Below are positions 161-16,001 of a stretch of DNA of 48,385 bases, piece after piece. How positions within the stretch are numbered: position 1 is the first letter of the stretch; each line of letters starts with the position of its first letter. Below the pieces are notes generated by a model that made no database searches, was not told the DNA's origin, and saw only the letters and a list, made by a program, of their open reading frames with translations. The position numbers and the translations under genes were made by a program. The DNA comes from Zoogloea oleivorans (lineage in GTDB: Bacteria > Pseudomonadota > Gammaproteobacteria > Burkholderiales > Rhodocyclaceae), in contig JAOAUC010000042.1 of NCBI GenBank assembly GCA_030157785.1, forward strand, positions 1-48,385. Direction: 5' to 3'.

Positions 161-670
161 TTATCGCACTTTCCAGGGCATGTCCGCATGCAGCGAGGTC
201 TGATCCACCACAATGGGGTGCGGGTCAATCGCTTTGAGCAGGGTGCGTAATTTCTGCTTCAACTTGTCCGGTTCAATCGCCCGCGGCCGCAAGCGGGTGT
301 GCTTGGCAGGTTGCTCGACATGACATACCACGCGCATGCGCTCAGCGTCGAGCAGCCCACGGGCTTGGCGGCGCTCACCAGCTTCATTGGCTTGGGTTTG
401 AGCGGCAACCAGACCCGCCAGTGTGTCGCGTACCTTGATGGCAATCTCGTCGGCCAGATCGCCAGGCTTGGTACGGACATGTAGCCGGTAATCCTTGATT
501 TCAATCAACCAGGCCGTTGCTCCTGAGCGACACACCAGATCAACGGCCTTGTTATCGGTGTAACAGCCGTTCTGGAAGCGGTTGCGGTAAAACGCCCAGT
601 CATCGTACTTGCTGGCGCAAGTTCCGGCGTCGAAACTGAAGGTCAAGCTCCCCTCTTGAATCACCGACAT
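161..670 (-). CDS. Small PD-(D/E)XK-like protein, last gene of helicase/methyltransferase operon
   Basis: Protein of 169 residues, no named family recognised. I start it at the ATG at 670, whose A is shared with the stop codon of the preceding ATPase gene (TGATG), a coupling typical of co-translated pairs; a start 15 bases further up is possible. Residues 41-60 read KAVDLVCRSGATAWLIEIKD, so Asp44 is followed by Glu57-x-Lys59 across two hydrophobic beta strands, the core of the PD-(D/E)XK nuclease fold. The C-terminal half is basic and helical. By position it is the fifth and last gene of the operon and would be the natural nuclease or nucleic-acid-binding effector working with the ATPase. Nuclease function is inference from the motif; it could also be an inactive relative. 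Confidence 0.72.
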   Translation of the reverse strand: MSVIQEGSLTFSFDAGTCASKYDDWAFYRNRFQNGCYTDNKAVDLVCRSGATAWLIEIKDYRLHVRTKPGDLADEIAIKVRDTLAGLVAAQTQANEAGERRQARGLLDAERMRVVCHVEQPAKHTRLRPRAIEPDKLKQKLRTLLKAIDPHPIVVDQTSLHADMPWKVR

Positions 671-1707
671 CAGTCCCCCTCCCATTCCAGGAAGCGGTCC
701 GACTGGGCGAGTTCCTCATCCAGCATGACCAAGGAACGGATGTCATCGAGGTGTCCACTTTGCTCTAGTATTACTTGACCATCCTGATCGGCAAGGGCAA
801 ACCAGCGCCGAGGCAGCTTCTGGTTAGCCTTCTCGCCGAGCAGCATTTCCAGTTCCCGCAGCAGGAAAAGAGAGTGCGAAGCGATGAAAACCTGAACCCC
901 TTCCATGGCGACAGCGACGATGCTGCGGGCAATGGTCTTGATGAGCTTGGGGTTGAGATTGGTTTCCGGTTCGTCCCAGATCAAATAGCCCTGTTCCAGC
1001 AAGGTTCCGGTAGAGATGAGGCGGGCGAGCATCGCGATCTTGCGTAGCCCCTCCGCGACGAGCGGCATTTCCATGCGCCCTTCGGCTAGTTGCAGATAGA
1101 AGCGACCCGTGGCCTTGTCCACCGCCACATTGCCCCCCATGGCTGCTTCCAGCGGCGCCAGCAGCCGGGTGACCGCCTTCGCACGCGGCCCTTTGAGGGC
1201 AGGGTTCCCAAGGAGTGAGACCGTGTCGCGCCAGGTTTCCTCGAACTCCAGGTGGTAGTTGTCGTAAAGCGGCACAAACCACGGACACAGCGTCACCAGT
1301 TCGCGCGTGGGAAGGAAGGCGGGTGAGCGTGGCAGTTTCGTGCCCGGCCCCTCCAGCACTTCTACTTGCGACTTGGCATTTGTGGCGAAAGCAATGGCGC
1401 AACTCTGCTTCCCGTCCTGCATCGATAAGGCAATTTCGCAGCGTTCGCGGCCCTGCTTGCGCTTGACCAGTCGCCCCAGGGTTTCAGGGCGAAACACCGA
1501 CAGCAGTTTGTCCGCGTAGGCTCTTTCGAGAGCAGACTTGCTCAAGTCCCGGGCGTCGGCCTGGACCTTGAGCAATGCATACAAAAGCTTGAGCACATGC
1601 GTTTTGCCCAACCCATTTTCACCCACGACCACATTGAGACCTGCCGAGAGCGTCCACTCACCATTCGGTAGGGTGGTGAAGTTTTTCAGTGTGAGCTTTT
1701 CGATCAT
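670..1707 (-). CDS. SMC/RecF-like AAA ATPase of defence operon
   Basis: A 345-residue ATP-binding protein of the AAA_21/OLD-like, ABC-type ATPase group. It opens with MIEKLTLKNFTTL, the usual N-terminal strand of RecF/SMC-like proteins, then a Walker A GENGLGKT (about residues 29-36). Walker B is YLIWDEPETNLNP and the switch histidine is in VFIASHSLFLLRELE, both near the C-terminus, as in single-chain ABC ATPases that lack a long coiled coil. It lies 11 bases after the methyltransferase stop and has a clear GAGGAG ribosome site; its own stop overlaps the next start. In defence operons such ATPases commonly gate or load a nuclease, here possibly the small PD-(D/E)XK-like protein encoded next. 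No TOPRIM domain is seen, so it is not a full OLD nuclease. Confidence 0.88.
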   Translation of the reverse strand: MIEKLTLKNFTTLPNGEWTLSAGLNVVVGENGLGKTHVLKLLYALLKVQADARDLSKSALERAYADKLLSVFRPETLGRLVKRKQGRERCEIALSMQDGKQSCAIAFATNAKSQVEVLEGPGTKLPRSPAFLPTRELVTLCPWFVPLYDNYHLEFEETWRDTVSLLGNPALKGPRAKAVTRLLAPLEAAMGGNVAVDKATGRFYLQLAEGRMEMPLVAEGLRKIAMLARLISTGTLLEQGYLIWDEPETNLNPKLIKTIARSIVAVAMEGVQVFIASHSLFLLRELEMLLGEKANQKLPRRWFALADQDGQVILEQSGHLDDIRSLVMLDEELAQSDRFLEWEGD

Positions 1708-1718
1708 GCTCGGACTCC

Positions 1719-4610
1719 TCAGATTTCAAAACTGCCCTGCGCGCCCACATGGCCCGCATCGGCCGAGGCCTGCTCGATGCTCGACCAAGTGCTCACCAGT
1801 TCGTTGTAGGCCCGTGCCTCTTCGGCCCAGCCCTTGCGCTCGCACAGTGTGTAGAGCCGATAGGCTAGTGCGCGGACCGGTTCGGCGCGGGCGGGCATGC
1901 GGGCGAGCAACGCGCCGGCTGCCGATTCGCCTTGCTGGTTGAGCGCGCGGATCAGGTGATGCAGGGCTTCCCATACCGGCGTGCGGGTGTCGGTTTCGGG
2001 GTGCCAGTCGGCCGGAAGTTCGCCCCAGCGGAGCAGCCGCAGATTGCCCTTGCCGCTTTCGATCACGCCGGCTTCGATCAGACCGGCAACGCTGGTGCCC
2101 TTGGCCCGGGCCAGCACATCGGCTTCGCCATATTTACCTTCCGCCCAGCCCTGGCCCTCGAACCAGTGCAGGCAGAATTGTGTGTCGTGGTCGAAGTCGT
2201 CTTCGGCAAAGAAGCGGTTGATGAGTTGCAGCGCGGTACGAACGCTCATCGGCGTTCCGTCGGCTTCGAGGACGGCGGCGTATTGGCTGAAGATCGCCAT
2301 GCCGGGGCCGATGATGGCCTGACTCAAGTCCACCGGCGCGACCGGGCTGTTGATGCCACCACGGGTCATTTCGTCGAGGGCGTTGGGGAGTGCGGCGTTG
2401 AGTTCTCGCAGGAACTCGCGGCGGCTGACGGAGAGGGCATCAGAGGCACGCTTGCGGCAGACAAGAACGATACTGGAGGCCAAAGCATTGGTGCCCGAAC
2501 CGATCATGCGGTTGCCGAGTTCGGTGCGCATCGGCCATGTACCGGTAATGGCAAATCCAGCCCGAATCACCGCATCGAGGAAGGTTTCCCAACCGGTACT
2601 CGACGTGCCGGCTTCGCCCTTGGTTTCAGCCTGTTTGAAAGCGTAATAAATCGTGACCGGGAAGGCCGGATGAGCTTGCTCTGCGAGGTTGTGGATCGCG
2701 CGAGTCATGCCGTCGAGGAAGAAGGACTCGGCCTGCGCCTTGCCGCCGTGACGATAGGGCGTAGCCACAAGTTCCTCGGCCTTTGGGACCGCGAGCGTTG
2801 CGTAGAGGCAGGGGAAAATTGGTTTCAGGCTCTTGCGGAGCCAAACGTAGAAAAAGTCGGAAAGGTCTGCATAACCAATGTTGTCGTAATATGGGGGGTC
2901 CGTCGAAACAACTTTACCTTCCGATATTTTTTGCATGGCCGCGTCAGCTTGCTGCGCAACTCCAACAGCACTCACCTGCGTTACAGAAACTCCTTTTGCG
3001 GTGTAATCGAGAGAATTTTCCCAGCTACCGGACTGCCCTGAGTATGGATTTACCTCAGCAAAATCCCACGACATTGGAATGGCTTGGCGAGAAAATGTAT
3101 TGCGCATTTTGGTTCCCCATGTCGCGCCACCAGCATCCCAAGAGCAAATAGTGCTAAGTCGGTCTGCTAAGCTGCTATTAACAAACGCAAGGAAAGTGCC
3201 CAACGCTTGACCATAAGCCGTCGCGCCACAGCCACCAGCGTCCAATCCCACGCCATCATTTGCCATTCCCGCCGCTACTGCATTTTTCTGACAGCGTTCT
3301 GTGGCCTCCAGCACCAAATCGGAAAATGTAGTCAGAGCCACTAGTTGGCGAGGAGTAAAGAGGTCGCAAAATTTTGTTAAACCATAGTTTGGCGTCTTAA
3401 AGTCCCGAGGATTGTTCGGTAGTTCCATCTCGGGTGACCATTCCGGCTTCGCACTTTCGGCAATCGTAATCTGTGCAGCTGTTGGGGGGAGATAGATTCT
3501 GCCGCGCACACCTTCTGCGACGATTGCCATCAAACGCTGCCCCATCCGGCCCGCCTTACCTTCAGCACGAATGTGGTTGTAATCGATTGGCGAGCCAGAA
3601 AGCATACAGATGAACGCTGCACGCTTACCTGCAGTGGTCCCGCTTGTCGAACTATCCGGCGGGAGCCCTCTACGAACGGTGAACTGGTACTTATCCCCGT
3701 CTACTAGTGGCATGACATGCGCTTCGTTTCCCTTCATTTTCGACAATACAAAAGTCGAGACCAAAGGCACTTCCGCGTGACTAAACGCTGGGTTGGGGCT
3801 TTTCACCGTGCGCGCCCACAGCCACGCGATCACCGTGAGTTGTTGGCCGAGCAGTGGCGCGAGGTCCGGTCTTTCTGCTGCCATCTCGGCGGTGACTTCG
3901 ATTTTCGGATACAGGTGGCCGATGCGTTTCTCGGCCTCGGCCCGCATCCATGCGCCGTAACGGCGTACGTCCTCGGCCAGTCCTTTGGCTCCGGACCAAT
4001 CCTCCGCGAACTTGCCCTGCTTGTCGCCCACTAGCGGCGGTCCCACCGGCGCCCGGCCGGCAAAACGCGGTGGTATCTCGATCATCGCCTTGTTGATCGT
4101 AACCGCCACCGGGTTCAGATCCGACGCGTAGCTTTCCAGCCCCAGGCGCTGTGCCTCCAGCGGCAGCGCGCCGCCCCCCGCGAAGGGGTCGTGAAAGGGG
4201 GGCAGCTTGTCCGGATTGAAAAGTTCAGCGGCCTGAGGGTGGCTTTTGTTGAGTTCGCAGGTCTCGCGCCAACTGCGCACGATCTCGGCGCGGGCGCGGT
4301 TCAGCACCTCTTCGTTGTTGGTGTTCTCCCACAGCACCAGGTCTTCGATGATCTTGAACAGGCGCTCGCGTTCGATCGCCGCCTTTTCTTTGTTCACCCC
4401 GTACTTGAAGCCGCCCCCCTGCTGGTAGCCGGGATCATTGACCATCTGTGCGAAGATCACCGCCCTGGCGGTTGCCAGCGGCCGGCGCGCCCACCACAGG
4501 TGCAGCGTGCTCGGATGGCCGTGGCGGATGGACTTTTCACGGGCAGACGCGACGTTGATGGCGTCGAGGGGGAGGGCGACTTCGATGAGCTTCTTGGGGG
4601 CACGGATCAT
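1719..4610 (-). CDS. DUF1156 adenine-type DNA methyltransferase
   Basis: A 963-residue protein. Residues 1-60 match the DUF1156 N-terminal region ([14 protein letters not shown], then [14 protein letters not shown]). The SAM-binding motif is DPFAGGG at 141-147, with ASDLNPVA after it at 162-169; the catalytic motif DPPY is at 571-574, so the order is FxGxG before DPPY with a very long stretch between. That order and the DPPY sequence indicate an amino-methyltransferase (N6-adenine or N4-cytosine). The ATG overlaps the stop of the upstream DUF4145 gene (ATGA). The middle part, roughly residues 277-607 (bases 2790-3780), is visibly richer in A+T than both flanks and may be an exchanged target-recognition segment. 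Probable role: self-marking for the helicase/ATPase defence operon. Confidence 0.9.
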
Positions 4611-5296
4611 TCTTGCTTTTCGCTAGTGTTAGGTTTCGCTGCCCTAGGGGGACGAGGCGGGATCGATTTTCTCAATGACGCCGCTGATTCCGTGAGGAGA
4701 TCATGCTGGATGAGGTTCTCGACAATATCCATTACTGCTTCGAGTTGGTCTGGAGACGGCTTGTGGGCTCGGTGTGCTGCCGCATGGCCAGCCTCAACGG
4801 CCGCCTTAATGACTTCCAGACTGCGCGTTGTGATGTAGTTCTGTGCGACCAGTTGTTTGAGTCCCTCTTCAAAACGCGGCGAGTCCTGCAACTTCCTAGA
4901 CATGAAAACGTCGATAAGTGTGCGTAGGCCCATCATTGCGAGGCTGCGACTGTCTGCATGAAGAGCTGAGTAGATCTCTGAAAACAGAGACGAATACTCG
5001 CTGGGAAGCTTCTCAAACCACCCGGGCCGTCGACGGGACACTCGGGGAGGGAAGTACGTGACCTCCCCCGAGTCCATTGGGTCTGCCTCTGAACACCATT
5101 CAACTCGGCGAAAAATAACCTCCTCGCACCCTCTGCATTCAAGCATGGTGTGTGTCGTTGCCCAGTGGACTGCAATACCGCTATACGGGTCGATCAATTC
5201 AGATTCGCGATGGACTCGTTCCATCACAACGTCGTGCCTGGTTTCGTGTCCACACTCGTTACAGTGCGCTCTGACAATTTTTGGTGGCTCACTCAC
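4607..5296 (-). CDS. DUF4145 protein with N-terminal zinc ribbon
   Basis: A 229-residue protein starting with GTG at 5296, inside the last codons of the helicase gene, and ending with a stop that overlaps the methyltransferase ATG. Near the N-terminus are CNECGH (Cys13/Cys16) and, after about 40 residues, CRGCEE, which together form a four-cysteine zinc ribbon. The helical segment from about residue 95 ([16 protein letters not shown], then [14 protein letters not shown]) and the [11 protein letters not shown] stretch match the DUF4145 pattern. DUF4145 is frequent in restriction-modification and other defence loci but has no settled biochemical function; it resembles HEPN-like helical domains. 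The tail is Pro/Arg/Lys rich. Inferred role: nucleic-acid-binding accessory protein of this operon. Confidence 0.85.
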
Positions 5297-8200
5297 TGGT
5301 GCGGCCCTCCAAATTTTTTGCTTGCTTCAGCAACTGCGCAAGGTCGAGGTTGATGCTGGTTACCGCCCAATCCGGCTCCTGCGTGAACGGCTTGGTCACG
5401 TAAAACGGCCCCTCGTGCATGTCCCCATTTACCAGGACGATGGCCAGGATGAACTTGTCCTGCTGGTTCAGCCCGTAAAGAATTTCGTTGCGGGTCACGG
5501 TGATCGTCGTTGCGCCCTTGGTACGGCCCTTGACCTCGATGTGACGCGAGGGCGGGAGTTTGCCACCGATGGCATGCGGCAGGCTCGTGACGTCCCAGCC
5601 GCACTTTTGCGCTGACACGTCGATGACTTCATGGCCGAGTGCGCGCTCAGCGTCCATCACAGCGTTCATCGCGACCCATTCGATCCTGGCGCGGGCGGCG
5701 GCATCAGCGGACCATCCCGGCGCACCCTTCCTCTGGGCCAGGAGGCCGGCCGGGATCACCAGGGCGCCGCCCACGACGACGGGCGTTGCGGAAATAACGT
5801 GGCGCATCGCCAGCAGCTCCTTTTCGCGGGACGCGCGGCGAGCGGTCAGCTCGTCGATCGTGCGGCGGACGTTCTCCAGCGTGAGACGCACGTCCTTGCC
5901 GGCCGCGATGTCGTCCTGCAGCTTGATGTAGCGGTCCGACCAGAAGTTGATCTCCTTGACCAGGCGTTCATGGACCGCGGCCAGTGTCTTGTCGACGCTC
6001 TTCTCGCGTCGGGTCCGCACCTCGCCGAAGTGCTCGGGAACCAGGTGGTTGGAGGCGTGGGCCAGAGCCTGTTGCTCCAGATTCTGGGTGATCCAGGGTG
6101 CCCCCAGCACGTCCTCGATCAGGGCAGTGTCCGTTTTGGCAATGGGCTCCAGATCCAGGTGAGGCGCCCAGCCCGCGTTGGCCGTGCAGCCCTGCGGATC
6201 GATTTCGACGAACTGCATCCGGCGGGAGACGACGTAGCCCGAGGCGGGTAGGTCGCCGTGCTGGCTGCCCGGCGAGGCGCCTTCCTTGACGCAGTGATCG
6301 ATGATGAACATCACCTTCGGCGTGATGCCGCTGTCGCTCGGGTCGACCAGTACGGCCCCTTGCTTGAGCTTGTTGCGGTGCTGTTCCAGGACGAGATCGG
6401 TGACCGACTGCATCAGCGGGTGGCCGGGGTGCATGAGGCTGGCCATCGGCGCACTGATGCGGTCGATCAGGCGGACGTACTGCTTCTCGAAGCAGACGCG
6501 CTCGTAGCGTCGCAGCACCGGGTCGGCGTTGCGCCGGTCCCGGCCGGTGATCTGGCGGTCGCGCTCGCGGATGTTGGCCGGGACGTGGGTGATCTCATAG
6601 CGCCCCTGCTCGCGGGGGCGCAGTTCGCCGCCTAGTTGCTGGAAGGCCTGGTTGAAGAAGGAGCGGATGAAATAGGGCTGGAGCTTGCGGGCTTCGGCCT
6701 TCTCCATCTCTTCCTTGACCGCGAAGAGGCGGCGCTCGTCCATCACCTCTTCGCACAGGGCGTTGCGTTTGATGATGGTTTCGAGGTGCGCGGTGTCGAG
6801 CGCACCTTCGATCTTGCGCAGCAGACGGGCGCGTACTTCGGGGTCGGCCCCGTAGCGGATCGCCTCGATCAGCAGGTCCTTGAGGCTCCTTTCCTCGAAC
6901 ACTTCGCCAAGGATGTCGAAGACCCGGCCACCCAGAGCTTCGCGCTCGACTTCCAGCTTCTCGAACAGGCGCTGGAAGACGTCGCCCTCGCGGGTTTCGG
7001 ATGCCACCAGGTTCCACAGGTGGCAGACCTCGGTCTGGCCAATCCGGTGGATGCGGCCGAAGCGCTGCTCCAGCCGGTTGGGGTTCCAGGGCAGGTCGTA
7101 ATTGACCATCAAGTTGGCGTTCTGGAGGTTCACCCCTTCGCCCGCGGCGTCGGTGGCCAGCAGCACCCGCGCGGTCGGATCGTTGCGGAATAGCTCCTGC
7201 ACCTTGCGGCGCTCTTCGCGTTTGACGCCGCCGTGGATCATGACCACGGCCGCTTCGTCGCCGATCACGCCGCGGATTTTCACCGCCAGATAATTCAGCG
7301 TGTCGCGGTGCTCGGTGAAGATGATCAGCTTGCGCTGACGTCCATCGGCGTCGTGCATCTCGGGCGTGTTCTGCAGCAGTTTCGATAGCTCATCCCACTT
7401 GCGGTCCTGACCGGAATGGACAACCTGCCGGGCCTGCTCCTCCAGCGCTTCGAGAATGAAGATTTCGGCTTCGAGTTCCTGAATTGTTTGGGCCGCTGTG
7501 GCCTGATCGACGATTGCTTCCTCGAAGTTTTCATAGTCTTCGGCCGACAGGGATTCAGCCGACTCCCAGATGTCGTCGCCGTTTTTTCCGTGGCCGTTGA
7601 CGGCCGGCTCCGGGGTTCCCGCCAGGGTCTGCCCGCGCTGCAGGAGCTTCTCTTCCTCGACGCGGCGCCTGAGCTTGTGGCGACGACGCTTGAGGGACTG
7701 ATAGATGGCCTCCGGGCTGGAGGCGAGGCGACGTTGCAGCGAGGTCAGCGCGAAGCCCACCGTACCCTTGCGGCCACCGTCCTGGAGCTGGTCGGCCCGG
7801 TTCATTTCCTCCTTCACATACTCGGTGACGGCGGCGTAAAGCGCGGCTTCCAGGTCGGAGAGCTTGTAATTGGTGGTGTAGGCCCGGCGCTCGGGGAACA
7901 GGCGCGTCCCGTCGAAGCGGAACATCTCTTCTTTCACCATCCGGCGCATCAGGTCGGTGACGTCGACCTTGTGCGCTCCGTCGCGGAACTTGCCGTAGAA
8001 ACGGTCGGAGTCCAGCAGCGACATGAAGAGCTGGAAGTCCTCCTCCTTGCCGTTGTGCGGCGTGGCGGTCATCAGCAGGAAGTGCCGGGTAATCGAACCC
8101 AGCAGCTCGCCCAACTGGAAGCGCCGGGTTTTGTTGACCTTGTTGCCGAAGTAGTTGGCCGAGAGCTTGTGGGCTTCGTCGACGACGATCAGATCCCAGT

Positions 8201-8867
8201 GAGACAGGCGCAGTTTCTCCAGCAGGTCTTCGCTGCGGGACAACTGATCGACCCGGGCGACCATCAGGTCCAGGTCGTCGAAAGGGTTGCCGCTGCGGGA
8301 CTGCTCGACCTGCTCCCGCGAGAACAGCGTGAAGGACAAGCCGAACTTCTCGAACATTTCGTCCTGCCACTGCTCGACGAGGCTGCCGGGGGCAACGATC
8401 AGCACGCGCCTGGCGTCGGCTCGCATCAGGAGTTCACGGATGAACAGCCCCGCCATGATGGTCTTGCCCGCGCCGGGGTCGTCCGCCAGGACGTAGCGCA
8501 GCGGCTGCCTGGGCAGCATCGACTCGTACACCGCCGTGATCTGGTGCGGCAAGGGCTCCACGTTGGACGTGTGGACGGCCATCATCGGATCGAACAGATG
8601 GGCCAGATTTATCCGCCACGCTTCGGCTGCCAGCTTAAAGTCTTCGCCAGGCGCGTCGAAGGCCCACGGACGGCCAGCTTCGGCGAGCGAGAGCTTGGTT
8701 TCGTCGGTACGGAACAGCATCCGTTCCAGAAGGCGGCCGTCAGGCGTCTTGTAGTAGACGGTGAGGGCGTTGTCCCCCACTGGTTCGGTCGTGACGATCC
8801 GCACCACCTGAGCGGGCTCGATGCCCGAAACGGCAGCGTTCTTCTTGATGTCTTCGAGCTTGAGCAT
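5289..8867 (-). CDS. SNF2/DEAD-type helicase with C-terminal DUF3883
   Basis: I start this 1192-residue protein at MLKLEDIKK (ATG at 8867), which fits family members known to begin this way; an open frame continues upstream to 9170 but that part looks non-coding. Walker A is DDPGAGKT (129-136), motif [10 protein letters not shown] (228-235), motif [12 protein letters not shown], and the second RecA-like domain ends with [11 protein letters not shown], the SNF2/RapA-type motif VI. The last 130 residues hold a DUF3883 domain (conserved IEVKGRTKG, a PD-(D/E)XK-like strand). It is the first gene of the operon that continues into DUF4145, methyltransferase, ATPase and the small PD-(D/E)XK-like gene. 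Inferred role: ATP-driven translocase that inspects or remodels incoming DNA. It is related to DISARM DrmD-like helicases, but drmA, drmB and drmC are absent here. Confidence 0.92.
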
Positions 8868-9558
8868 GAGTTGTAAGGGCCGAAGGCAACCGATCGGGCA
8901 AGACTTGGGATTATGAAGGAGGACGAGGGAAAGCTCGACCGTCTGGTAAGACATCACTGTCGGTGAGGGCTGGGCGCCCCGGTGGAGGCCTGGCGACTCC
9001 GACCCCGTGCCATATCCTGCGAAAATACTCCATTCGCCACACGCACTTCGCCGACCATGATCGAGTCGAGCAGCGCTTTCCTGCTCCGTGTCACCCGCAT
9101 CGAACATCAACGCTGCCCGCATTCTGTAAGCGGACAGTTTCGTCTCGTCAAGACGATCCAATCGGGACATCGCCCAGGGTATCCGCGAGGGCAGCCACGA
9201 GGGACGAACCTGTGCCCTATGCTGGGGAGCGATCGGATGGCAACAGCATTCGCAGTCGCTTTGACTCTGAGCACGGGAAACGTGTCAGCACCAACGCAGC
9301 ATTCACTCTTCGCGCCACGTCCGATCAGCGTTCCATGAACGCTCCCGAGTGTTCAAGAGCATCGCCCCTTCCGTTACGCTCATGCCAAACAATTGACTTC
9401 AGACGGGGCAACCTTACAATCCCCATAGTCACCGTCATCACAGCGGTTCAGTCCAACAAGGTTTATCCGCAGCCATGCCGCATCGCCTTCTCCAAGCTCT
9501 GCCACGTCGGCGGATAAACGCTATTTGTTATGTTTAGATCGGAACAATAAAGCTTCGT
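8868..9558. other. Intergenic region, divergent promoter area between defence operon and AT-rich gene
   Basis: No convincing gene. An open frame on the plus strand (8963-9517) and an upstream extension of the helicase frame (to 9170) both have compositions and residue patterns that look non-coding. The last 110 bases hold an imperfect palindromic element described separately. The minus-strand promoter of the helicase operon must lie here, but no clear -35/-10 pair stands out by eye. Confidence 0.6.
9451..9541 (+). repeat. attC-like long inverted repeat upstream of the AT-rich gene
   Basis: A perfect 10-base inverted repeat, GTTTATCCGC (9461-9470) and GCGGATAAAC (9510-9519), encloses 39 bases. 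Outside it, AACAA (9455-9459) can pair with TTGTT (9525-9529), extending an interrupted stem. GTCCAAC at 9451-9457 fits the RYYYAAC box of integron attC sites, but the matching GTTRRRY box on the other side is imperfect (GTTATGT). The octamer TTAGATCG at 9534-9541 occurs again just after the gene at 10544-10551. This could be a gene-cassette recombination site or simply a transcription-terminating hairpin; no integron integrase is present in the window. Confidence 0.4.
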
Positions 9559-10518
9559 ATGAGTGAAGTTCAAACAAGCCATACTCTTGAGAGCATTCAA
9601 TTTGAGTTTGATTGCTTAATTGAAAATCTGTCTAGAGTTCTTAAGGAAATAAAGCCAAGAACTAATATACTAAATACAAAGCTAGGTGCCATTAAAAAAG
9701 ACTTGGCAAATCTTGATGGCTTGGATGGCGAATCTTTGGCAAAAATTACAGAAATAGCAATTAAATACAACGCCATCAACAATATCTTTCTGCACAAAGT
9801 CGATTACAACAAACACGATTTAGCCAAAATAATCGAAGGAAAATCAAACTATGCGCAAGATAGCGATGAAAGCTATAACGACCATTTTTTTGAACTCTCA
9901 ATGGGCGTTAGATTTCTGCTCGCACTAAAAGAAAAAAACCCAAACACCAAAATAAGTTTAGACGGCGTTTGCGATGTAATCGTAAACGACACAATTGCAA
10001 TTGAATGCAAATACATCCACAGCCCTTCTGGCCTTGTCAAGAACGTAAGAAAGGCAAAGAAGCAGATTGAAGAGCGAGTGAGTAAGAGTCAAGCTGAATT
10101 TGGATTTATTGCGCTGGACTTGTCGCATATCTGCCCAAGGGAAAATATCAAGGAGTTTGCAAATTACACCTTTGGTAAGTTCGCTGCCAATTATGAAACT
10201 CTAGAATCAAAAGGTCGAATAAAAGACGACATACTCAAAGAGATACTAAATAACAATTATTTTTATAAAATACTTAGCAGCTACATTTCGGCGGAAATTG
10301 AAACTTCGCTTTACAGCGAACTAGGTTTTTCATACGACTTGGGCCAAAAAGCATTGGCAATAATATTTCAATCAATGAACTCATTTGCCTTTGAGTACAA
10401 AGGAAAAGTTTTGCCTCTGACGACCAGAGGAATGACGTATTTTTTAAATCCCGCTCTCAAAAACAAAAGCGCATTGGATGTAAAAAAGTTCATTCATGGG
10501 TTGGCGGTTGGTGTGTAA
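9559..10518 (+). CDS. AT-rich PD-(D/E)XK nuclease-like protein of unknown family
   Basis: A 319-residue protein whose codons are strikingly A+T rich beside GC-rich neighbours, a sign of recent transfer. Residues 1-100 are helical and probably coiled coil. A helix with Glu112 (HFFELSMGVRFLLAL) precedes a strand-turn-strand DGVCDVIVNDTIAIECKY, giving Asp139 and Glu149-Cys-Lys151, the PD-(D/E)XK signature; a basic helix follows (KNVRKAKKQIEERV). That arrangement matches restriction-endonuclease-like folds. It stands alone on the plus strand between two minus-strand defence operons and is flanked by hairpin elements and a shared TTAGATCG octamer. No partner methyltransferase is next to it in the same orientation. 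Function as a nuclease is inferred; the family is not recognised. Confidence 0.8.
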   Translation: MSEVQTSHTLESIQFEFDCLIENLSRVLKEIKPRTNILNTKLGAIKKDLANLDGLDGESLAKITEIAIKYNAINNIFLHKVDYNKHDLAKIIEGKSNYAQDSDESYNDHFFELSMGVRFLLALKEKNPNTKISLDGVCDVIVNDTIAIECKYIHSPSGLVKNVRKAKKQIEERVSKSQAEFGFIALDLSHICPRENIKEFANYTFGKFAANYETLESKGRIKDDILKEILNNNYFYKILSSYISAEIETSLYSELGFSYDLGQKALAIIFQSMNSFAFEYKGKVLPLTTRGMTYFLNPALKNKSALDVKKFIHGLAVGV

Positions 10519-10580: not shown

Positions 10581-11048
10581 TTAAATTTTCCGGATACAGT
10601 TCCACAACTTAGACCATAAACCAATTTTTTCAGTGCTTGGAGGTACAGTTGCCACCGATGGCTGTGTTGGGCGATTCCCGTCCGCTTGGTCAGATTCTGC
10701 TGCCCTATGATAGAACGTTTCCTTTGTAGCCTTATCCCGCTTCTTTTCTGCTTCGATCCGGTGGTGACCCCAAGGCCCGGCCTCCAATACCAGGTTGCTT
10801 TTGATTACATAATGTGACTTGCAGGGTAAGTTCCAGTTGCCAATTGATGGCCAAAGCGACACTTGTTCACCGTTAAACGTCAATGTCCAATCGGTTGGAG
10901 TTAATGGTGTAACAACTTCGTGGCCACAGCCGCAACAGCAGCTATGGACCACGGTGCCATATTCCATCGACACGTAGAGAACGCCTTGCTCAAGCTCTCT
11001 TGGAACTCCTTTCACGAAACGAGGCTCAAGCTGCGTATGGAGAATCAT
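10581..11048 (-). CDS. DUF6527-like Cys-rich protein of ubiquitin-like operon
   Basis: A 155-residue protein whose start overlaps the stop of the E1-like gene (ATGA-type overlap at 11045-11048). The core is HSCCCGCGHEVVTPL (35-49), then SLWPSIGNWNLPCKSHYVI (64-82). Cys37/38/39/41 and Cys76/His79 look like metal ligands or a reactive-cysteine site. The C-terminal third is charged and low complexity. I place it in the DUF6527 family, known mainly from loci with multi-ubiquitin and ThiF/E1 genes; its biochemistry is not established to my knowledge. As this operon has no recognisable E2 or JAB protease, this protein is the candidate for the missing transfer or accessory step. That is inference only. 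Confidence 0.8.
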   Translation of the reverse strand: MILHTQLEPRFVKGVPRELEQGVLYVSMEYGTVVHSCCCGCGHEVVTPLTPTDWTLTFNGEQVSLWPSIGNWNLPCKSHYVIKSNLVLEAGPWGHHRIEAEKKRDKATKETFYHRAAESDQADGNRPTQPSVATVPPSTEKIGLWSKLWNCIRKI

Positions 11049-12217
11049 GCGGGAATCCCATTTAAAAGCATGTTGCCGTCAGTCGTATAGGAGCAGTGGT
11101 GTTCTTTCTCTAGATCACGATAGAAGCCGCGATACTTCTTCCACTTCATGACGGCCAAAGCAGCGTTCAGTGAGTTCAGGTCTGCGACCTGGATGTTTGA
11201 ACTGTAGACGTTCTCTTCATTTTGCTCTTCAAAGGCGATACGTTCCCGTGCGAAACCCCGCTCCTCAGGTGTACTAAGTGTGACTCGCAGGATGCCCCCT
11301 AGCGATCCATTTGAAAGCTCCAGCCCCATGCCGACATCGACAAAAGGCACTCCCATTCGTTCCAGTTGTTCGACGGCTACACGTTTCGCTCCCCCCGCAT
11401 CCATGCACAAAAACGCGAAACTGACGCCATCGAGAAGGGTCACTGTGCTCTCGGTGAGTTCCACTGCGTGCGCAACGATGCCTCGATGCATGCTTGAATA
11501 GATGGCGGCGAAATAATTGACTTTTTTCGGCATCTCACGAAGTTGCTCGATCGTTGGGGCGCCTGGGGCTCGGAAAGCATTGTGCTGGAGGAAATCATCA
11601 CCATCGATAAGTCTGATTTCCCTCACCGGCGTTTTAGCTAGTAAGTCCAATGCGTAGGAACCTGTACCACCAATGCCGATGATTGCGATGTGTTCGTCGG
11701 CGAGACGTGCCGTCAATACTCCAATGCCTGCCCTGCCCGAGGCCGTCTCCACGTAGTTGAAAACACTATCTCCGTCGTCCGCTGGGCCCCAAACTTTACG
11801 GGGACTGGTTCCCGGTCTAAGGACGGCGGCAGGCCCGGAGATAATCGTCGCGTACGTCGACATTTTTGCAAAGTAGTCGGTGTAACCGTTGTCGTTTGGT
11901 TTGCATGAGAGATAGTGCTGTGCAGAAACCAGCAAGTCCGCTGGAACGTTGCCTCCAGCGGAGATGCTGATGAGTGGCGTTCCGTCAGCTTGGCATGGAA
12001 ATTCGCCTTCAAAATAAACGGTATGTGGCTCCGGCTTCAGTGTTATGTCACCAGACAAACATAACGTGGAGCGGATCGTGCCCGTCTTCACTTCCCTGTG
12101 AGCATTGATGTATGGCACTTCATACATCACAAGGTTTCCGCCTTCGATTCGTACTACATAGCCGTCCTCGCGGAGTTGCTTTAGGTCAGAGTTAAGATTG
12201 AATAGTGCGGCCGACAT
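11045..12217 (-). CDS. E1/ThiF-like ubiquitin-activating enzyme with N-terminal DUF6791-type domain
   Basis: A 390-residue protein. I use the ATG at 12217 (MSAALFNLN) because GGGAG stands 8 bases before it; the frame is open 72 bases further up, inside the preceding gene. Residues 1-165 form a beta-rich domain like that fused to multi-ubiquitin-associated E1 proteins. From about 175 comes the Rossmann fold of ThiF/MoeB/E1 enzymes: AIIGIGGTGSYALDLLAK with the nucleotide-binding GIGGTGS at 181-187, IRLIDGDDF around Asp205, and CMDAGGAKR at 271-279. Such enzymes adenylate the C-terminus of a ubiquitin-like protein. No CxxC zinc pairs are seen. It overlaps the ubiquitin-like gene by 26 bases and the DUF6527 gene by 4, so the three are surely one transcript. 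Confidence 0.9.
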   Translation of the reverse strand: MSAALFNLNSDLKQLREDGYVVRIEGGNLVMYEVPYINAHREVKTGTIRSTLCLSGDITLKPEPHTVYFEGEFPCQADGTPLISISAGGNVPADLLVSAQHYLSCKPNDNGYTDYFAKMSTYATIISGPAAVLRPGTSPRKVWGPADDGDSVFNYVETASGRAGIGVLTARLADEHIAIIGIGGTGSYALDLLAKTPVREIRLIDGDDFLQHNAFRAPGAPTIEQLREMPKKVNYFAAIYSSMHRGIVAHAVELTESTVTLLDGVSFAFLCMDAGGAKRVAVEQLERMGVPFVDVGMGLELSNGSLGGILRVTLSTPEERGFARERIAFEEQNEENVYSSNIQVADLNSLNAALAVMKWKKYRGFYRDLEKEHHCSYTTDGNMLLNGIPA

Positions 12218-12917
12218 TGAAGATGCTCCCGTTTTTAACTTCAACAAAGCCGCCGGTAGCGAGCTCACCACTATGTGGAAAAGATGCAACTTTCCGATAG
12301 GTTATGGAGTACGTGATGTTCGGAGTGGGGGCCTCTCCCGGATAGGCAATCGCTACCAACTGATCAAAAGTCACGTGATCATTTGCAACCTTTGTCTCAT
12401 GGCCGTTGACCACGATCTCCATCTTTGGATTGCGCTTGGGCGCATTTTCAAAATGTTCGACCCCCTGAGGGGTGAGGTCAACCTCGTCCTCGATTTCGAT
12501 TTGGCGATCTTCTCCACCACGGATCACTAAAAAAACAGCTTCGTTCGTGTGCGGTTTCGAAAGCTCATACAGAATGGAGCCAGTGATGATCGGCATGCCC
12601 CACGTAACCTGACTCCCATTTACTGTCAGTTTGAATTCCCGGTCAGCGTGGAATGCCACAAAACGTTCAACACCGTTGCGGCGTAGATCAATGGGCTCAT
12701 CCAGCCGTACGTCTTCAAAATCCCCGGTGTCGAGGATCGCATACAGACTGTAGTCATCATTGGTCCTCAATCCTGCAGCAGCCAGAATTTGCCTGCCCAA
12801 GGGGACCGGATCGTTCATCACGAACTCGACAAAGGCCAGGCTGTCCTGAGCAACCTGTATCTTGTAGTGGTCAGGACGGTGTGCAACTTCGCCGAGAGGA
12901 GTATGAATTTCGCTCAT
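12192..12917 (-). CDS. Multi-ubiquitin protein with three tandem ubiquitin-like domains
   Basis: A 241-residue protein read from ATG 12917. Three beta-grasp ubiquitin-like domains follow one another: about residues 17-91 (HYKIQVAQ), 93-160 (REFKLTVNG) and 165-241 (PKMEIVVNG). Each has the pattern strand-turn-strand, helix, then a hydrophobic strand near an aromatic. The C-terminus is SIFNVGRTIQS rather than a Gly-Gly tail, so if the E1-like partner acts on it, activation needs trimming or uses a non-standard end. The gene heads the transcript with the E1-like and DUF6527-like genes; two similar palindromes lie 40-130 bases upstream. Related multi-ubiquitin loci have been described bioinformatically, and other bacterial ubiquitin-like pathways act in phage defence. 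Confidence 0.88.
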   Translation of the reverse strand: MSEIHTPLGEVAHRPDHYKIQVAQDSLAFVEFVMNDPVPLGRQILAAAGLRTNDDYSLYAILDTGDFEDVRLDEPIDLRRNGVERFVAFHADREFKLTVNGSQVTWGMPIITGSILYELSKPHTNEAVFLVIRGGEDRQIEIEDEVDLTPQGVEHFENAPKRNPKMEIVVNGHETKVANDHVTFDQLVAIAYPGEAPTPNITYSITYRKVASFPHSGELATGGFVEVKNGSIFNVGRTIQS

Positions 12918-12955
12918 GCTTAATAATCTTTCAAAAGTACGATGCGTTTGCATCT

Positions 12956-13049
12956 GGTTAAATGATCCTGTTTAACTTCGGTGTGACTAAAGTCAACCAG
13001 ACCAACCCGGATCGTACCCTTTGATTCAGGTTAAAGCAAGCTGTTTAAG
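12956..13049 (-). promoter_or_regulatory. Two-copy operator-like palindrome before the ubiquitin-like gene
   Basis: GTTAAA-N8-TTTAAC is a perfect inverted repeat at 12957-12976, and the same design recurs at 13030-13049 as GTTAAA-N8-TTTAAG. Both copies have an extra G in front and CTG just before the right arm, so they share GGTTAAA and CTGTTTAA. They are 73 bases apart, about seven helical turns. The position between the STAS-HTH gene and the ubiquitin-like gene marks them as likely binding sites of a local winged-HTH regulator. Confidence 0.65.
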
Positions 13050-13054
13050 GAGAT

Positions 13055-13615
13055 TTATCGTATCGCAGAGTATGTGTACTCGATGCCTCCAGAGTCCGCA
13101 ATGTCCTCTTGACGAAGCAGATACCCATCCGTCACAAGTTTTTTGAGGCGTGTGCTTGCGTTTGGTACGGAGAGGCCTAGGTCGGTTGCCACTTGAGCGG
13201 TACTGACCTTGCGATGACGCAGCACGTAATCAAGAAGATCACTCGCCGATGAACTGATGTCGGGGCCTATCACCTCAAATGACTCTTCGGAATGCCAGAT
13301 TACTAGAGGTTGTTGTTTAGCTTGGGCAGCGTATTTCCAGTTGTCCACCAAGTCGCGATCGCTAAGATCGGTTAGGTAGAACCAACGTTGTCCTCTGAAA
13401 TACTTGGCTGCAGCAACGACACTCTCGCGCGGGAAAGAGGCATCAGTGGCAACGATCCCGGCCAGCGAAATACCAAAGACCATCGTGCGTGGGGCCGCAT
13501 CCACAATGTCGGACAGGGCTCGGAACGCAGCTTTCCCTTGGAAGTTTCCGAAAGGGTGCGAATTTTTCGTCAAGTCCAACAGGCGGATCTGGACGCTGGA
13601 TGGAGTCTGGTTCAT
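13055..13615 (-). CDS. STAS-like domain plus winged helix-turn-helix protein
   Basis: A 186-residue protein. Residues 20-105 resemble the STAS-like (DUF4325-type) fold, with alternating strands and helices around MVFGISLAGIVATDASFPRE. Residues 118-186 are a winged HTH (LLDYVLRHRKVSTAQVATDL, then STRLKKLVTDGYLLRQE) like those of ArsR/MarR-type regulators. It is 24 bases after the GHKL ATPase gene and upstream of the ubiquitin-like operon on the same strand. STAS-like proteins paired with GHKL ATPases recall anti-sigma/anti-anti-sigma switches, so this may be the DNA-binding output of a two-protein sensor. GTTAAA half-sites just before its own ATG suggest autoregulation. The specific ligand or signal cannot be read from sequence. 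Confidence 0.78.
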   Translation of the reverse strand: MNQTPSSVQIRLLDLTKNSHPFGNFQGKAAFRALSDIVDAAPRTMVFGISLAGIVATDASFPRESVVAAAKYFRGQRWFYLTDLSDRDLVDNWKYAAQAKQQPLVIWHSEESFEVIGPDISSSASDLLDYVLRHRKVSTAQVATDLGLSVPNASTRLKKLVTDGYLLRQEDIADSGGIEYTYSAIR

Positions 13616-13629
13616 TTTAACAGTTTAAC
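13616..13629 (-). promoter_or_regulatory. GTTAAA half-sites immediately before the STAS-HTH start codon
   Basis: TTTAAC occurs twice on the plus strand, at 13616-13621 and 13624-13629 (GTTAAA twice, 8 bases apart, on the coding strand), directly abutting the ATG at 13615. The hexamer is the arm of the palindromes upstream of the ubiquitin-like gene, suggesting one regulator contacts all these sites. Here the two half-sites are in direct, not inverted, orientation. Confidence 0.45.
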
Positions 13630-13639
13630 GAGAAAGCGT

Positions 13640-14779
13640 TCAGACAGTCAACTCAAAATTAAAGCAAATATGCGTTCCACGCATTTTCCGTAGGTTCAAC
13701 CGATGTTCAAACTCCAGTGCCCCTGCACGATAGTGAATCATTACTTCGAACGTTTCCTGGCGCACGCTGATGCTAGCGTTGAACTTGTTTGCGAAATCCC
13801 CAGCACGTTTGAGGCCAAGCCCTCGACCATCATCTTGCATACGGCTCAATTGGCCATGCGAGAATATGTATTCAATCAAGGCGACGCCTAAATTTTTGCC
13901 CGAACATCCAAGCTGTTGCCGCATCTTAGTGTCAAGAGTGGGTAACAGCGTCCCGACAATCCCATTTCCAGCATCTGAAAAAACGGTACGAATGTGTGGG
14001 CGAGCCCCCTTCTTGTAAAGCTGCAGTGCCGCGAAACCGGGTATGGGGGACTCCGAATGTTCATGTACATTGTCAAAGAGTTCACCGAGAATCGTCAGCA
14101 CTCCAACGGTATGGGTAGAGCCCGCACATTGCTCGAAGCTGCGTTGCAGACGCCGTGGAGTTTCATCATCCCGCTCCTCCATGTTGATGGGAGCAAGTTC
14201 GACTACGCCGGTGTTTTCTCCTCTGTAAGCAGTAGCACGTGATGTTTTCGGACGCTTTGGTTGCACAATAACTTTGCCATCTAAATGATCGAAAAATCCA
14301 ATCCGACTTAGATAGCTAGATGTTGACGGGCAGTCGTCGAAATCAATGGTTACAAACTTTCCGATTCCGACAAGCTGATTGCAGAGTGCGAGCAAACGTG
14401 CCATCGCATCCAGCAGCAATGAAGTGTCTGGCGAGAACTTAAAAACAATGATCTTATGACTGGACTCAAGCGGAGACTCAACTGAGCAAAGAGTTGTCTC
14501 AAGCTGGTCCGTTGTTAGCCACCTCGTTTTTGGAAACTCAATCAAAAGCTTATGGGGTTGGATCAGAGACCACTGATACGCGTCATTTTGCACAAAAACT
14601 TCCAAATGTTGATGCAGAAGTGCGCTGATGACCGAGCGCTCTATACCAAGACGCTTTGCTATGTCTTTGGCTTTCAGTGGCTGGTTTAGCCGCAAGACTC
14701 TTTGTATTTCTTCTACCATAGTGGGACCTGCACTATGCCGTGCGACGGCTTGTCTGAATGGTATGGCTTTTACCTTCAC
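13640..14779 (-). CDS. GHKL ATPase with N-terminal HTH and STAS-like region
   Basis: A 379-residue protein. A winged HTH lies at about 22-75 (VEEIQRVLRLN, then LKAKDIAKRLGIERSVISAL). Residues 105-175 look STAS-like (IIVFKFSPDTS, then FVTIDFDDCPSTSSYLSRIG). The C-terminal GHKL ATP-binding domain has the N box GELFDNVHEHSE (Glu233, Asn237), the G1 box SDAGNGIVG (Asp269) and the G2 box GRGLGLKRA (318-326), ending with a GTHICFNFEL strand. No phospho-acceptor H box is seen, so it is a cytosolic ATP-dependent switch, not a classical sensor kinase. It precedes the STAS-HTH gene by 24 bases. Together they likely sense a cellular state and control, or feed into, the ubiquitin-like operon; this link is inferred from proximity and shared DNA motifs. 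Confidence 0.82.
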   Translation of the reverse strand: MKVKAIPFRQAVARHSAGPTMVEEIQRVLRLNQPLKAKDIAKRLGIERSVISALLHQHLEVFVQNDAYQWSLIQPHKLLIEFPKTRWLTTDQLETTLCSVESPLESSHKIIVFKFSPDTSLLLDAMARLLALCNQLVGIGKFVTIDFDDCPSTSSYLSRIGFFDHLDGKVIVQPKRPKTSRATAYRGENTGVVELAPINMEERDDETPRRLQRSFEQCAGSTHTVGVLTILGELFDNVHEHSESPIPGFAALQLYKKGARPHIRTVFSDAGNGIVGTLLPTLDTKMRQQLGCSGKNLGVALIEYIFSHGQLSRMQDDGRGLGLKRAGDFANKFNASISVRQETFEVMIHYRAGALEFEHRLNLRKMRGTHICFNFELTV

Positions 14780-15274: not shown

Positions 15275-16001
15275 ATGTCGCACCGCCGTCATGAGTTGCT
15301 TGATGCGGAATGGGCGCTCCTCGATCCGCTTTTGCCGGCGGCGACCATGCCCGGTCGGTACTACCTGAACTACCGAACGATCCTCAACGGGATGCTGTTC
15401 CACAACGCGACTGGCATCCCTTGGCGCGATCGACAGGTCGCTGTGGTGTATCGACGGCTCGAATGTACGCGCACAAAGCCGTTGCCGACGCGGAAAAATC
15501 TTCCCCACTAGGAGCCGACGGACCACGCGCTGGGCCGTAGTCGCGGGTGCTGGGGCACGAAGCTGCATCTGGGGAGCGACGGAGGCGGGCTGCCTCTGAC
15601 CGTTGAGTGCCGGCCAAGCTCACGAGTCGCTCTTTGCCGAGCCGGTGCTCGATGCCGTCCGAATCGTGCAACCACATGGCTCCCCACGGCGGCATCCCGA
15701 AAGGCTTGGGGGCGACCGAGGTTACTGCTACCGACGCATCCGCAACTGGTTCCATAAGCACCATGTTGGCGCCGTCACTTCCGCACGAACGACGCGACCA
15801 GAGTGCGCAGCGGCGCGGCCGGCCGCCCAAATTCGACCTCCATACTGCCGCCGCAACGTCATTGAGCGTTGTGTCAGCTGGCTTAAGGAGGCCCGAGCGG
15901 TCGCCACCCGCTTCGAAAAGCTCGCCGTACACTATCTTGGCTGTATCAAGCTCGCCATGATCCGCCGGCATCTGCAGGCCATCTTGTCAAACAGACCCTA
16001 A
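15275..16001 (+). pseudogene. Decayed IS5-family DDE transposase
   Basis: Pieces of one IS5-family transposase in several frames. The start, MSHRRHELLDAEWALLDPLL, followed by RTILNGMLFHNATGIPWRD (15275-15435), is the usual N-terminus. The middle has lost sequence; WGTKLHLGSDGGGLPLTVE (about 15552-15608) is in one frame, then SAGQAHES, LGGDRGYCYRRIRNWF and RNVIERCVSWLKEARAVATR to the stop at 16001 in another. The last segment carries the C-terminal catalytic Glu region. At least two frameshifts and an internal deletion make it non-functional. I could not find convincing terminal inverted repeats. It marks the boundary between the defence region and the hydrogenase neighbourhood. Confidence 0.85.

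Follow-up and report, generated by a model that had tools for sequence, protein, structure and literature searches.

The DNA analysed here is a contig of Zoogloea oleivorans (JAOAUC010000042.1), all 48,385 nucleotides (nt) of which are referred to as the window. Three intact genes on its minus strand encode a triple ubiquitin-like tag protein (bubA), an E1-like enzyme and a protein of the DUF6527 family (Table 1). The genes overlap by 26 nt (bubA/E1) and 4 nt (E1/DUF6527, 11045-11048), and the order of transcription is capK, capS, bubA, E1 gene, DUF6527 gene. An earlier note on this DNA had described a ubiquitin-like conjugation operon of three coupled genes in a defence region, and its inventory was confirmed. 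In the tag, PF14452 (Multi_ubiq) matches three times (E 1.4e-51 with the longer bubA frame; a second open ATG lies at 12953), and the protein has relatives of known structure (9d5b, 8u38, 9cd2, 9d59). The E1 combines an N-terminal domain of its own, DUF6791 (PF20590, E 4.4e-47), with a ThiF domain (PF00899, E 3.5e-9), and its partner belongs to DUF6527. As the note had stated, E2 and JAB protease are missing: the Prok-E2_E and Bub JAB profiles gave no match at E 1e-3 in the 48-kb window. Hma and HEC-02 defence genes lie downstream of the operon. The note did not mention a capK-capS regulator pair (13055-14779) and its operators, both just upstream of the operon. The nearest named record is from Z. 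oleivorans (99% over the E1). The identical three-gene order was found again in relatives of several phyla, thus the operon is not a chance arrangement.

Table 1. Features of the operon, its regulatory region and the neighbouring defence cluster (positions in the window; aa, amino acids).
Feature	Position	Strand	Remarks
CapK-like kinase	13640-14779	-	379 aa from GTG
TTAA-N4-TTAA, capK-capS gap	13617-13628		lies where the narrow palindrome TTAA-N1-TTAA is published
CapS-like STAS and winged-helix repressor	13055-13615	-	186 aa
CapS-type wide palindrome, distal to bubA	13031-13048		minus strand TTAAACAGCTTGCTTTAA
CapS-type wide palindrome, proximal to bubA	12958-12975		minus strand TTAAACAGGATCATTTAA; spaced 73 bp from the distal palindrome
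bubA, triple ubiquitin-like tag	12192-12917	-	241 aa, ends ...FNVGRTIQS
Multi_ubiq repeats of BubA	12651-12830, 12438-12635, 12204-12419		PF14452
bubA/E1 gene overlap	12192-12217		26 nt
T-x-x-S C-terminus of the tag (T-I-Q-S)	12195-12206	-	conserved in DUF6791 loci
E1-like enzyme	11045-12217	-	390 aa from ATG; DUF6791 and ThiF adenylating domain
DUF6791 domain	11744-12190	-	PF20590 match
Invariant Ser104 codon (DUF6791)	11906-11908	-	101/101
Invariant Tyr338 codon (E1 half)	11204-11206	-	101/101; candidate acceptor
DUF6527 protein	10581-11048	-	155 aa; PF20137, E 9.4e-23
Ser68 and His79 of the DUF6527 protein	10845-10847, 10812-10814	-	candidate dyad
Hma-type defence cluster	161-9170		HmaA 5289-9170; HmaB 1719-4610; HEC-02A and HEC-02B 161-1707

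We profiled 124 related loci with models built from the Citrobacter Prok-E2_E and JAB domains. DUF6791 was found in 106 of them, JAB in 12, both in none (an exclusion partly built in, the E1 of one or the other branch having served to collect most loci) and neither in six, one of which is masked (L004) and the rest short or partial. Neither Prok-E2_E, whose absence was not built in by the sampling, nor JAB occurred in any of the 106 DUF6791 loci. Prok-E2_E was present in 8 of the 12 JAB loci (7 distinct), namely in all those reaching past the E1 start, the other four being stretches that end inside the E1 frame. DUF6527 accompanies both branches (105/106 DUF6791 loci, 12/12 JAB loci); for L038, the sole DUF6791 locus without it, the stretch ends 118 bases after the E1. 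Moreover, when only DUF6527 was used to draw the sample (12 genomes apart from the window's own), it gave four DUF6791 loci, four JAB loci and a partial JAB-like locus, but none that combined the two. As DUF6791 loci are devoid of both Prok-E2_E and JAB, DUF6791 may replace two modules and is read here as a putative E2 equivalent. Relatives with all three genes come from Pseudomonadota, Verrucomicrobiota, Planctomycetota, Acidobacteriota, Myxococcota, Hydrogenedentota, Bacteroidota, Actinomycetota and Bacillota, the phylum of some of the named relatives among the first six being presumed. A Leptolyngbya plasmid (Cyanobacteriota) also encodes the E1, at 58% identity. DUF6791 was present in 7/299 genomes of a phylum sample and DUF6527 in 13/369 genomes of a class sample, the window's own genome included in both.

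Residue conservation was counted over 101 DUF6791 loci, which fall into 56 clusters at 90% E1 identity, carry 59 different overlap 26-mers and so cannot count as independent. L001-L003, L091 and later L115 and L120 were dropped as the window's own matches. The nearest relative, L004 from Zoogloea oleivorans, in which unread letters break the frames, was dropped from the E1, ubiquitin-like and DUF6527 counts, and the JAB-type L084 and L085 from the DUF6791 counts. L100 was dropped since its tag gene was not found at the chosen start, though the annotation shows a 26-nt overlap.

The C-terminal residue of the tag is Ser in 101/101 DUF6791 loci and the residue at -4 is Thr in 98. The T-x-x-S end recurs in 4/4 further loci reached through DUF6527 in the class-level sample, which lie outside the set of 101 and may share species with it, and none of the 105 tags has a tail beyond the terminal Ser. 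The overlap between bubA and the E1 gene measures 26 nt in 97 of the 101 loci and 41 nt in four, which take an ATG five codons earlier (in one of these, L098, public annotation puts the E1 start at the 26-nt place). It is again 26 nt in all four further loci, with ATG as the E1 start in three and GTG in the fourth. Within the overlap all four TCN codons are used for the terminal Ser (TCG 53, TCT 36, TCA 9, TCC 3), hence residue 8 of the E1 is Arg in 53 loci, Leu in 36, His in 9 and Pro in 3, and bubA ends on TAA, TAG or TGA (86, 11 and 4 loci). Among the 59 different 26-mers, bases 21, 22 and 24 (TC.T) are fixed and base 23 is any of the four letters; elsewhere in the overlap, invariance is confined to base 3 (G of the start codon) and base 13 (C of the codon for Thr -4). 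The third base of E1 codon 7 is T throughout, despite C being synonymous for the Ser, Asn, Asp or Ala encoded there. The fixed TC.T bases, the free base 23 and the T-ended codon 7 thus place the constraint on the tag end and not on the E1, and the codon use shows selection on the terminal Ser. JAB-type tags carry Gly at the corresponding place (7/7): those of Synechocystis and Neotabrizicola end T-E-G, in the Abditibacteriota tag eight residues follow T-E-G, and in four tags N-N-G or T-D-G precedes the E2 part. Plasmid pSYSX of the laboratory cyanobacterium Synechocystis PCC 6803 (L114), with its JAB-type Bub-like operon and a T-E-G tag free of any tail, is a handy comparator.

In the 101-row E1 alignment D205, D207, R216, K232, Y338 and Q343 never vary, nor do S104 and K106 of DUF6791. 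The only Cys column conserved in at least 90% of the rows is C75 of DUF6791 (95/101). The catalytic half of the enzyme is devoid of a conserved cysteine in this alignment, so a thioester would not be expected, and the suggestion of the earlier note that the lack of an E1 thioester would refute conjugation is misleading. The Citrobacter enzyme BubCD was the top match of the E1 in the profile search, Foldseek and VIA, and second behind TcdA in the single-sequence search. An hhalign comparison of the E1 half with seven JAB-type E1s gave a probability of 98.99 (E 5.6e-18). Its fold also matches PaaA, ThiF, MoeB, TcdA and MccB, and its NCBIfam label is that of a hypothetical-protein family only (PRK06153). 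Among viral structures, the E1 model was matched best in fold by BFVD A0A385DVW5, a 383-aa 'thiamine biosynthesis protein' of Bacteroides phage crAss001 (397 alignment columns, root-mean-square deviation 15.6). Tyr370 of BubCD is kept in 7/7 JAB-type E1s, and PDB entry 9eav is a mutant with Y370F. Since Tyr338 is the only Tyr at least 97% conserved after E1 residue 240, and Tyr370 is invariant in the BubCD stretch 355-389, where Tyr362 is variable, Tyr338 is probably the equivalent of Tyr370, but the automatic alignment paired it with Tyr362.

Ser68 and His79 of the DUF6527 protein, in a P-S...C-x-x-H motif, are kept in 106/106 copies (100 DUF6791-type, 6 JAB-type). Directly before the His, 103 copies have Ser, whereas three of the JAB-type have Ala or Cys. 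Furthermore, C39 and C76 occur in 101/101 rows and C37 and C41 in 100/101, and together these four cysteines are a candidate metal site; in the Synechocystis copy the second Cys is replaced by Ser. No PDB relative of the DUF6527 protein was found by sequence or by the fold of its model. Two tandem DUF6527 genes in another genome (L125 / L129, G587) have no ubiquitin-like or E1 gene within the 3 kb examined, and hence DUF6527 may work outside Bub too. The literature searched, which did not extend to the main Bub papers (Gong et al. 2025, Ye et al. 2025/2026), contained no paper on DUF6527 and no report of its S68/H79 conservation, of a C-terminal serine tag, of the fixed bubA/E1 overlap, of the cysteine-free E1 half with invariant Tyr338 and Ser104, or of the absence of Prok-E2_E and JAB across the DUF6791 branch. 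Among the papers listed for a serine-ended tag, only Iyer et al. (2006) looked relevant from title or opening of the abstract.

Upstream of bubA, the CapS-like protein is 51% identical to WP_001567865.1, the Enterobacter roggenkampii CapS (PMC13373217), and matches PDB entries 9z71 (E 1.5e-52) and 9z72 (E 7.7e-45); its S60 aligns with the phosphorylated S54. The CapK-like protein, for which no solved relative was found by sequence, shares 38% identity over 365 aa with WP_001567866.1, encoded by the gene before the Citrobacter capS, and its N237 and W87 align with the kinase Asn218 and the Trp68 contacting single-stranded DNA (ssDNA) of the published CapK (PMC13373217). The phosphorylated Ser, the kinase Asn and the ssDNA Trp are thus kept, and the wide palindromes are nearly identical to the published TTAAacagctttatTTAA. 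In contrast to the one wide palindrome described for the region in the available part of PMC13373217, two lie here 73 bp apart, and the repeat in the capK-capS gap has a spacing of 4 and not 1, which leaves its function uncertain. The window has two copies of TTAA-N10-TTAA, each of them in the stretch from capS to bubA, against 0.11 expected; two copies were reached in 0/100 shuffles. The Citrobacter plasmid L084 also carries a pair 73 bp apart (5247, 5320) and the Cupriavidus locus one 75 bp apart. Six distinct capK-capS loci, with the near-duplicates L004, L085 and L090 counted once and Cytobacillus L099 (a weak CapS-like match, no site) left out, include three with a pair (73-75 bp), two with one copy and one with none. 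As 73 bp is about seven DNA turns, two CapS dimers would sit on one face and could act together. In relatives, ssDNA-activated CapK phosphorylates CapS and repression is lifted (PMC13373217), and by analogy the present operon is likely switched on by DNA damage. A sigma-70 promoter scan of 12900-13100 gave no match. Two terminator-like hairpins with T-rich tails on the minus strand between capS and bubA (12941-12954 and 12997-13010; 0.2 expected in shuffles) possibly end the capS transcript. In the class sample CapS relatives were found in 1/369 genomes, solely the window's own. Beside other related operons the regulators are WYL proteins (CapW-like) or pairs of a helix-turn-helix (HTH) and an ImmA/IrrE protein (CapH-CapP-like), both of which are also placed next to Bub in PMC13373217. 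The HTH/DUF955 neighbours of the Synechocystis operon, read as a toxin-antitoxin pair in 2016 (PMC4963859), look like CapH-CapP.

The earlier note's assignment, a ubiquitin-like conjugation operon in a defence neighbourhood, is supported by family membership and the closest solved structures (Citrobacter BubCD). The operon fits the DUF6791 branch of the Bub class, a kind already described. The type 6e operons of Iyer et al. (2006; PMC1779556) comprise a polyubiquitin-like protein (polyUbl), an E1 in which 'domain X' replaces JAB, and a metal-binding protein Y. The window's operon resembles their domain X subset, with a polyUbl of one to three domains, a domain-X-type E1 and protein Y. Rmet appears in the species list for domain X (PMC1779556). 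The E1 of Cupriavidus metallidurans CH34 (P0058) carries DUF6791. Rmet we take to be this Cupriavidus species. From the text, the species list and the CH34 E1 we infer that DUF6791 is the domain X of 2006, and from the BubCD match that type 6e is what is now called Bub (PMC13373217). As distinct from type 6e, the terminal Ser is invariant here, and that account, in the part available, mentions neither the overlap nor Tyr338 nor the regulator pair (PMC1779556). The Citrobacter plasmid Bub operons, relatives of PDB entries 9ea4, 9ea5, 9ea8, 9eae and 9eav, share with the window the order capK, capS, multi-ubiquitin, E1, DUF6527, the E1 fold and the 73-bp operator pair. In Citrobacter, however, Prok-E2_E is joined to the tag and a JAB domain to the E1, neither of which is found here, and the gene overlap is 4 nt instead of 26 nt. 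The BubA construct used in the PDB complexes stops at residue 229, a Gly in the C. braakii protein, whereas the present tag ends on Ser. BilABCD likewise combines a tandem ubiquitin-like tag with an E1, and a BilA is among the relatives of the tag, but it has separate E2 and JAB genes (PMC11354881); here none was found by the Bub-type profiles, no Bil profile having been run.

Our favoured reading, which we hold slightly better than even, is that this DUF6791-branch Bub operon makes a Ser-ended tag which is activated and passed on through hydroxyls and not cysteines, likely upon DNA damage. CapS would repress the operon at the two TTAA-N10-TTAA sites until ssDNA-activated CapK phosphorylates its Ser60 and lifts the repression, as judged from relatives (PMC13373217). 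BubA would serve as translated, since in the absence of a tail past the Ser in 105 tags a maturing cut seems unneeded, and its terminal Ser would be adenylated by the E1 at the free carboxylate. The tag would then pass to a hydroxyl, most likely that of E1 Tyr338, next to DUF6791 Ser104 and from there to an amine of some target protein. As no JAB is present, the DUF6527 protein is the likely protease, with Ser68 and His79 as its putative dyad, and would remove or trim the tag. For Bub, Ye et al. reportedly describe conjugation through oxyester intermediates and a Ser-His protease. Of this scheme, the sequences themselves show the genes present, the conserved residues, the overlap and the operators, whereas the catalysis, the working of the operators, the targets and any action against phages are predicted. 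With more reserve, at somewhat less than an even chance, we extend this to the branch as a whole: in at least nine phyla, a Ser-ended tag used as translated would be transferred as an oxyester by a cysteine-free E1 (through Tyr338) and a serine-bearing DUF6791 that replaces both E2 and JAB, and removed by the DUF6527 Ser-His protease; Gly or Ser at the tag end would go along with the presence or absence of JAB, and the fixed 26-nt overlap would link the tag end to the start of its enzyme.

The role of DUF6791 can be read otherwise. It could be a JAB analogue, acting as deconjugase or regulator, with the E1 passing the tag directly from the adenylate or Tyr338 to the target; we judge this rather unlikely, yet the strongest of the competing explanations. 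DUF6791 occupies the place of JAB, N-terminal to the E1, and a JAB-like role of domain X was suggested by Iyer et al. (2006; PMC1779556). The searches for E2 similarity also weigh against the scheme. An hhalign comparison with a narrow set gave no support, and with 101 diverse loci it reached 0.26 against a best of 1.38 among the controls (one reversed, 29 shuffled). The global mode aligned 11 end columns with a score equalled in 3/60 shuffles, the best hmmsearch values were E 0.74 and 1.0, and no E2 match came from scanning 32 diverse DUF6791 members with Pfam. No E2 appeared by name among the best 50 of 490 matches in the BFVD fold search. The VIA-align rows span residues 143-377, so that an E2 match of DUF6791 could hardly appear. 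A W-S-R-H of Prok-E2_E opposite F-S-S-K-P was noticed by eye and is not counted as a test. On the other hand, nothing would account for transfer if DUF6791 were a JAB analogue only, given that Prok-E2_E too is absent from 106/106 DUF6791 loci, and the DUF6527 protein is already available as candidate protease. Moreover, the predicted secondary structure of DUF6791 (helix, four strands, fifth strand, long helix) has an order that suits an E2-type meander.

The serine end admits two other explanations. The last three residues, x-x-S, might be a propeptide, with DUF6527 cutting after the conserved Thr to leave it as the reactive end. The near invariance of this Thr and the fact that by eye it can face the Gly of some JAB-type tags speak for such a cut, but a discarded tail should vary, and the final Ser is fixed in all 101 tags. 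In addition, the Abditibacteriota tag, the sole JAB-type one with a free tail, shows no comparable pattern in its eight residues, and in an alignment from the C-terminus T-T-E-G of Synechocystis matches T-V-Q-S; we consider the propeptide improbable. Somewhat less probable still is that the gene overlap alone accounts for the invariant Ser and stop position and that these do nothing for the protein. Change is difficult where genes overlap, and the 26 nt recur in 97/101 loci, yet this explanation needs a constrained E1 frame, whereas E1 residue 8 varies between R, L, H and P, and three different stop codons at one place, like the fixed TC.T around a free base 23, run contrary to it. We find it very improbable that the operon is a sulfur-carrier or small-molecule pathway of the ThiF-ThiS or MccB kind and makes no protein conjugates. 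The fold matches to PaaA, ThiF, MoeB, TcdA and MccB, and the first rank of TcdA in the single-sequence search, would agree with such a pathway. However, BubCD headed the profile search and the two structure searches, no biosynthetic gene is seen within the operon, and its regulators are the pair known from immune operons (PMC13373217).

Among the neighbouring genes, a DUF4145 gene (4607-5296) sits inside the Hma cluster. Between this cluster and the operon, a plus-strand gene of 319 aa (9559-10518) faces the operon and has no significant Pfam or PADLOC family. Upstream of capK, a 132-aa piece of a transposase DDE domain (15603-16001, plus strand) resembles an insertion-sequence remnant.

The predicted use of the serine end can be tested cheaply by a few point changes. 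Ubiquitin and its conjugated beta-grasp relatives, to our knowledge, react through a C-terminal glycine. If the DUF6791 branch uses serine instead, the glycine rule would be no chemical need but would be set by the surrounding enzymes, perhaps above all by JAB. If our reading is true, the operon would furthermore be among the smallest ubiquitin-like conjugation sets known to us, with three genes, the functions of E2, E1 and protease in two proteins, and a DNA-damage switch.

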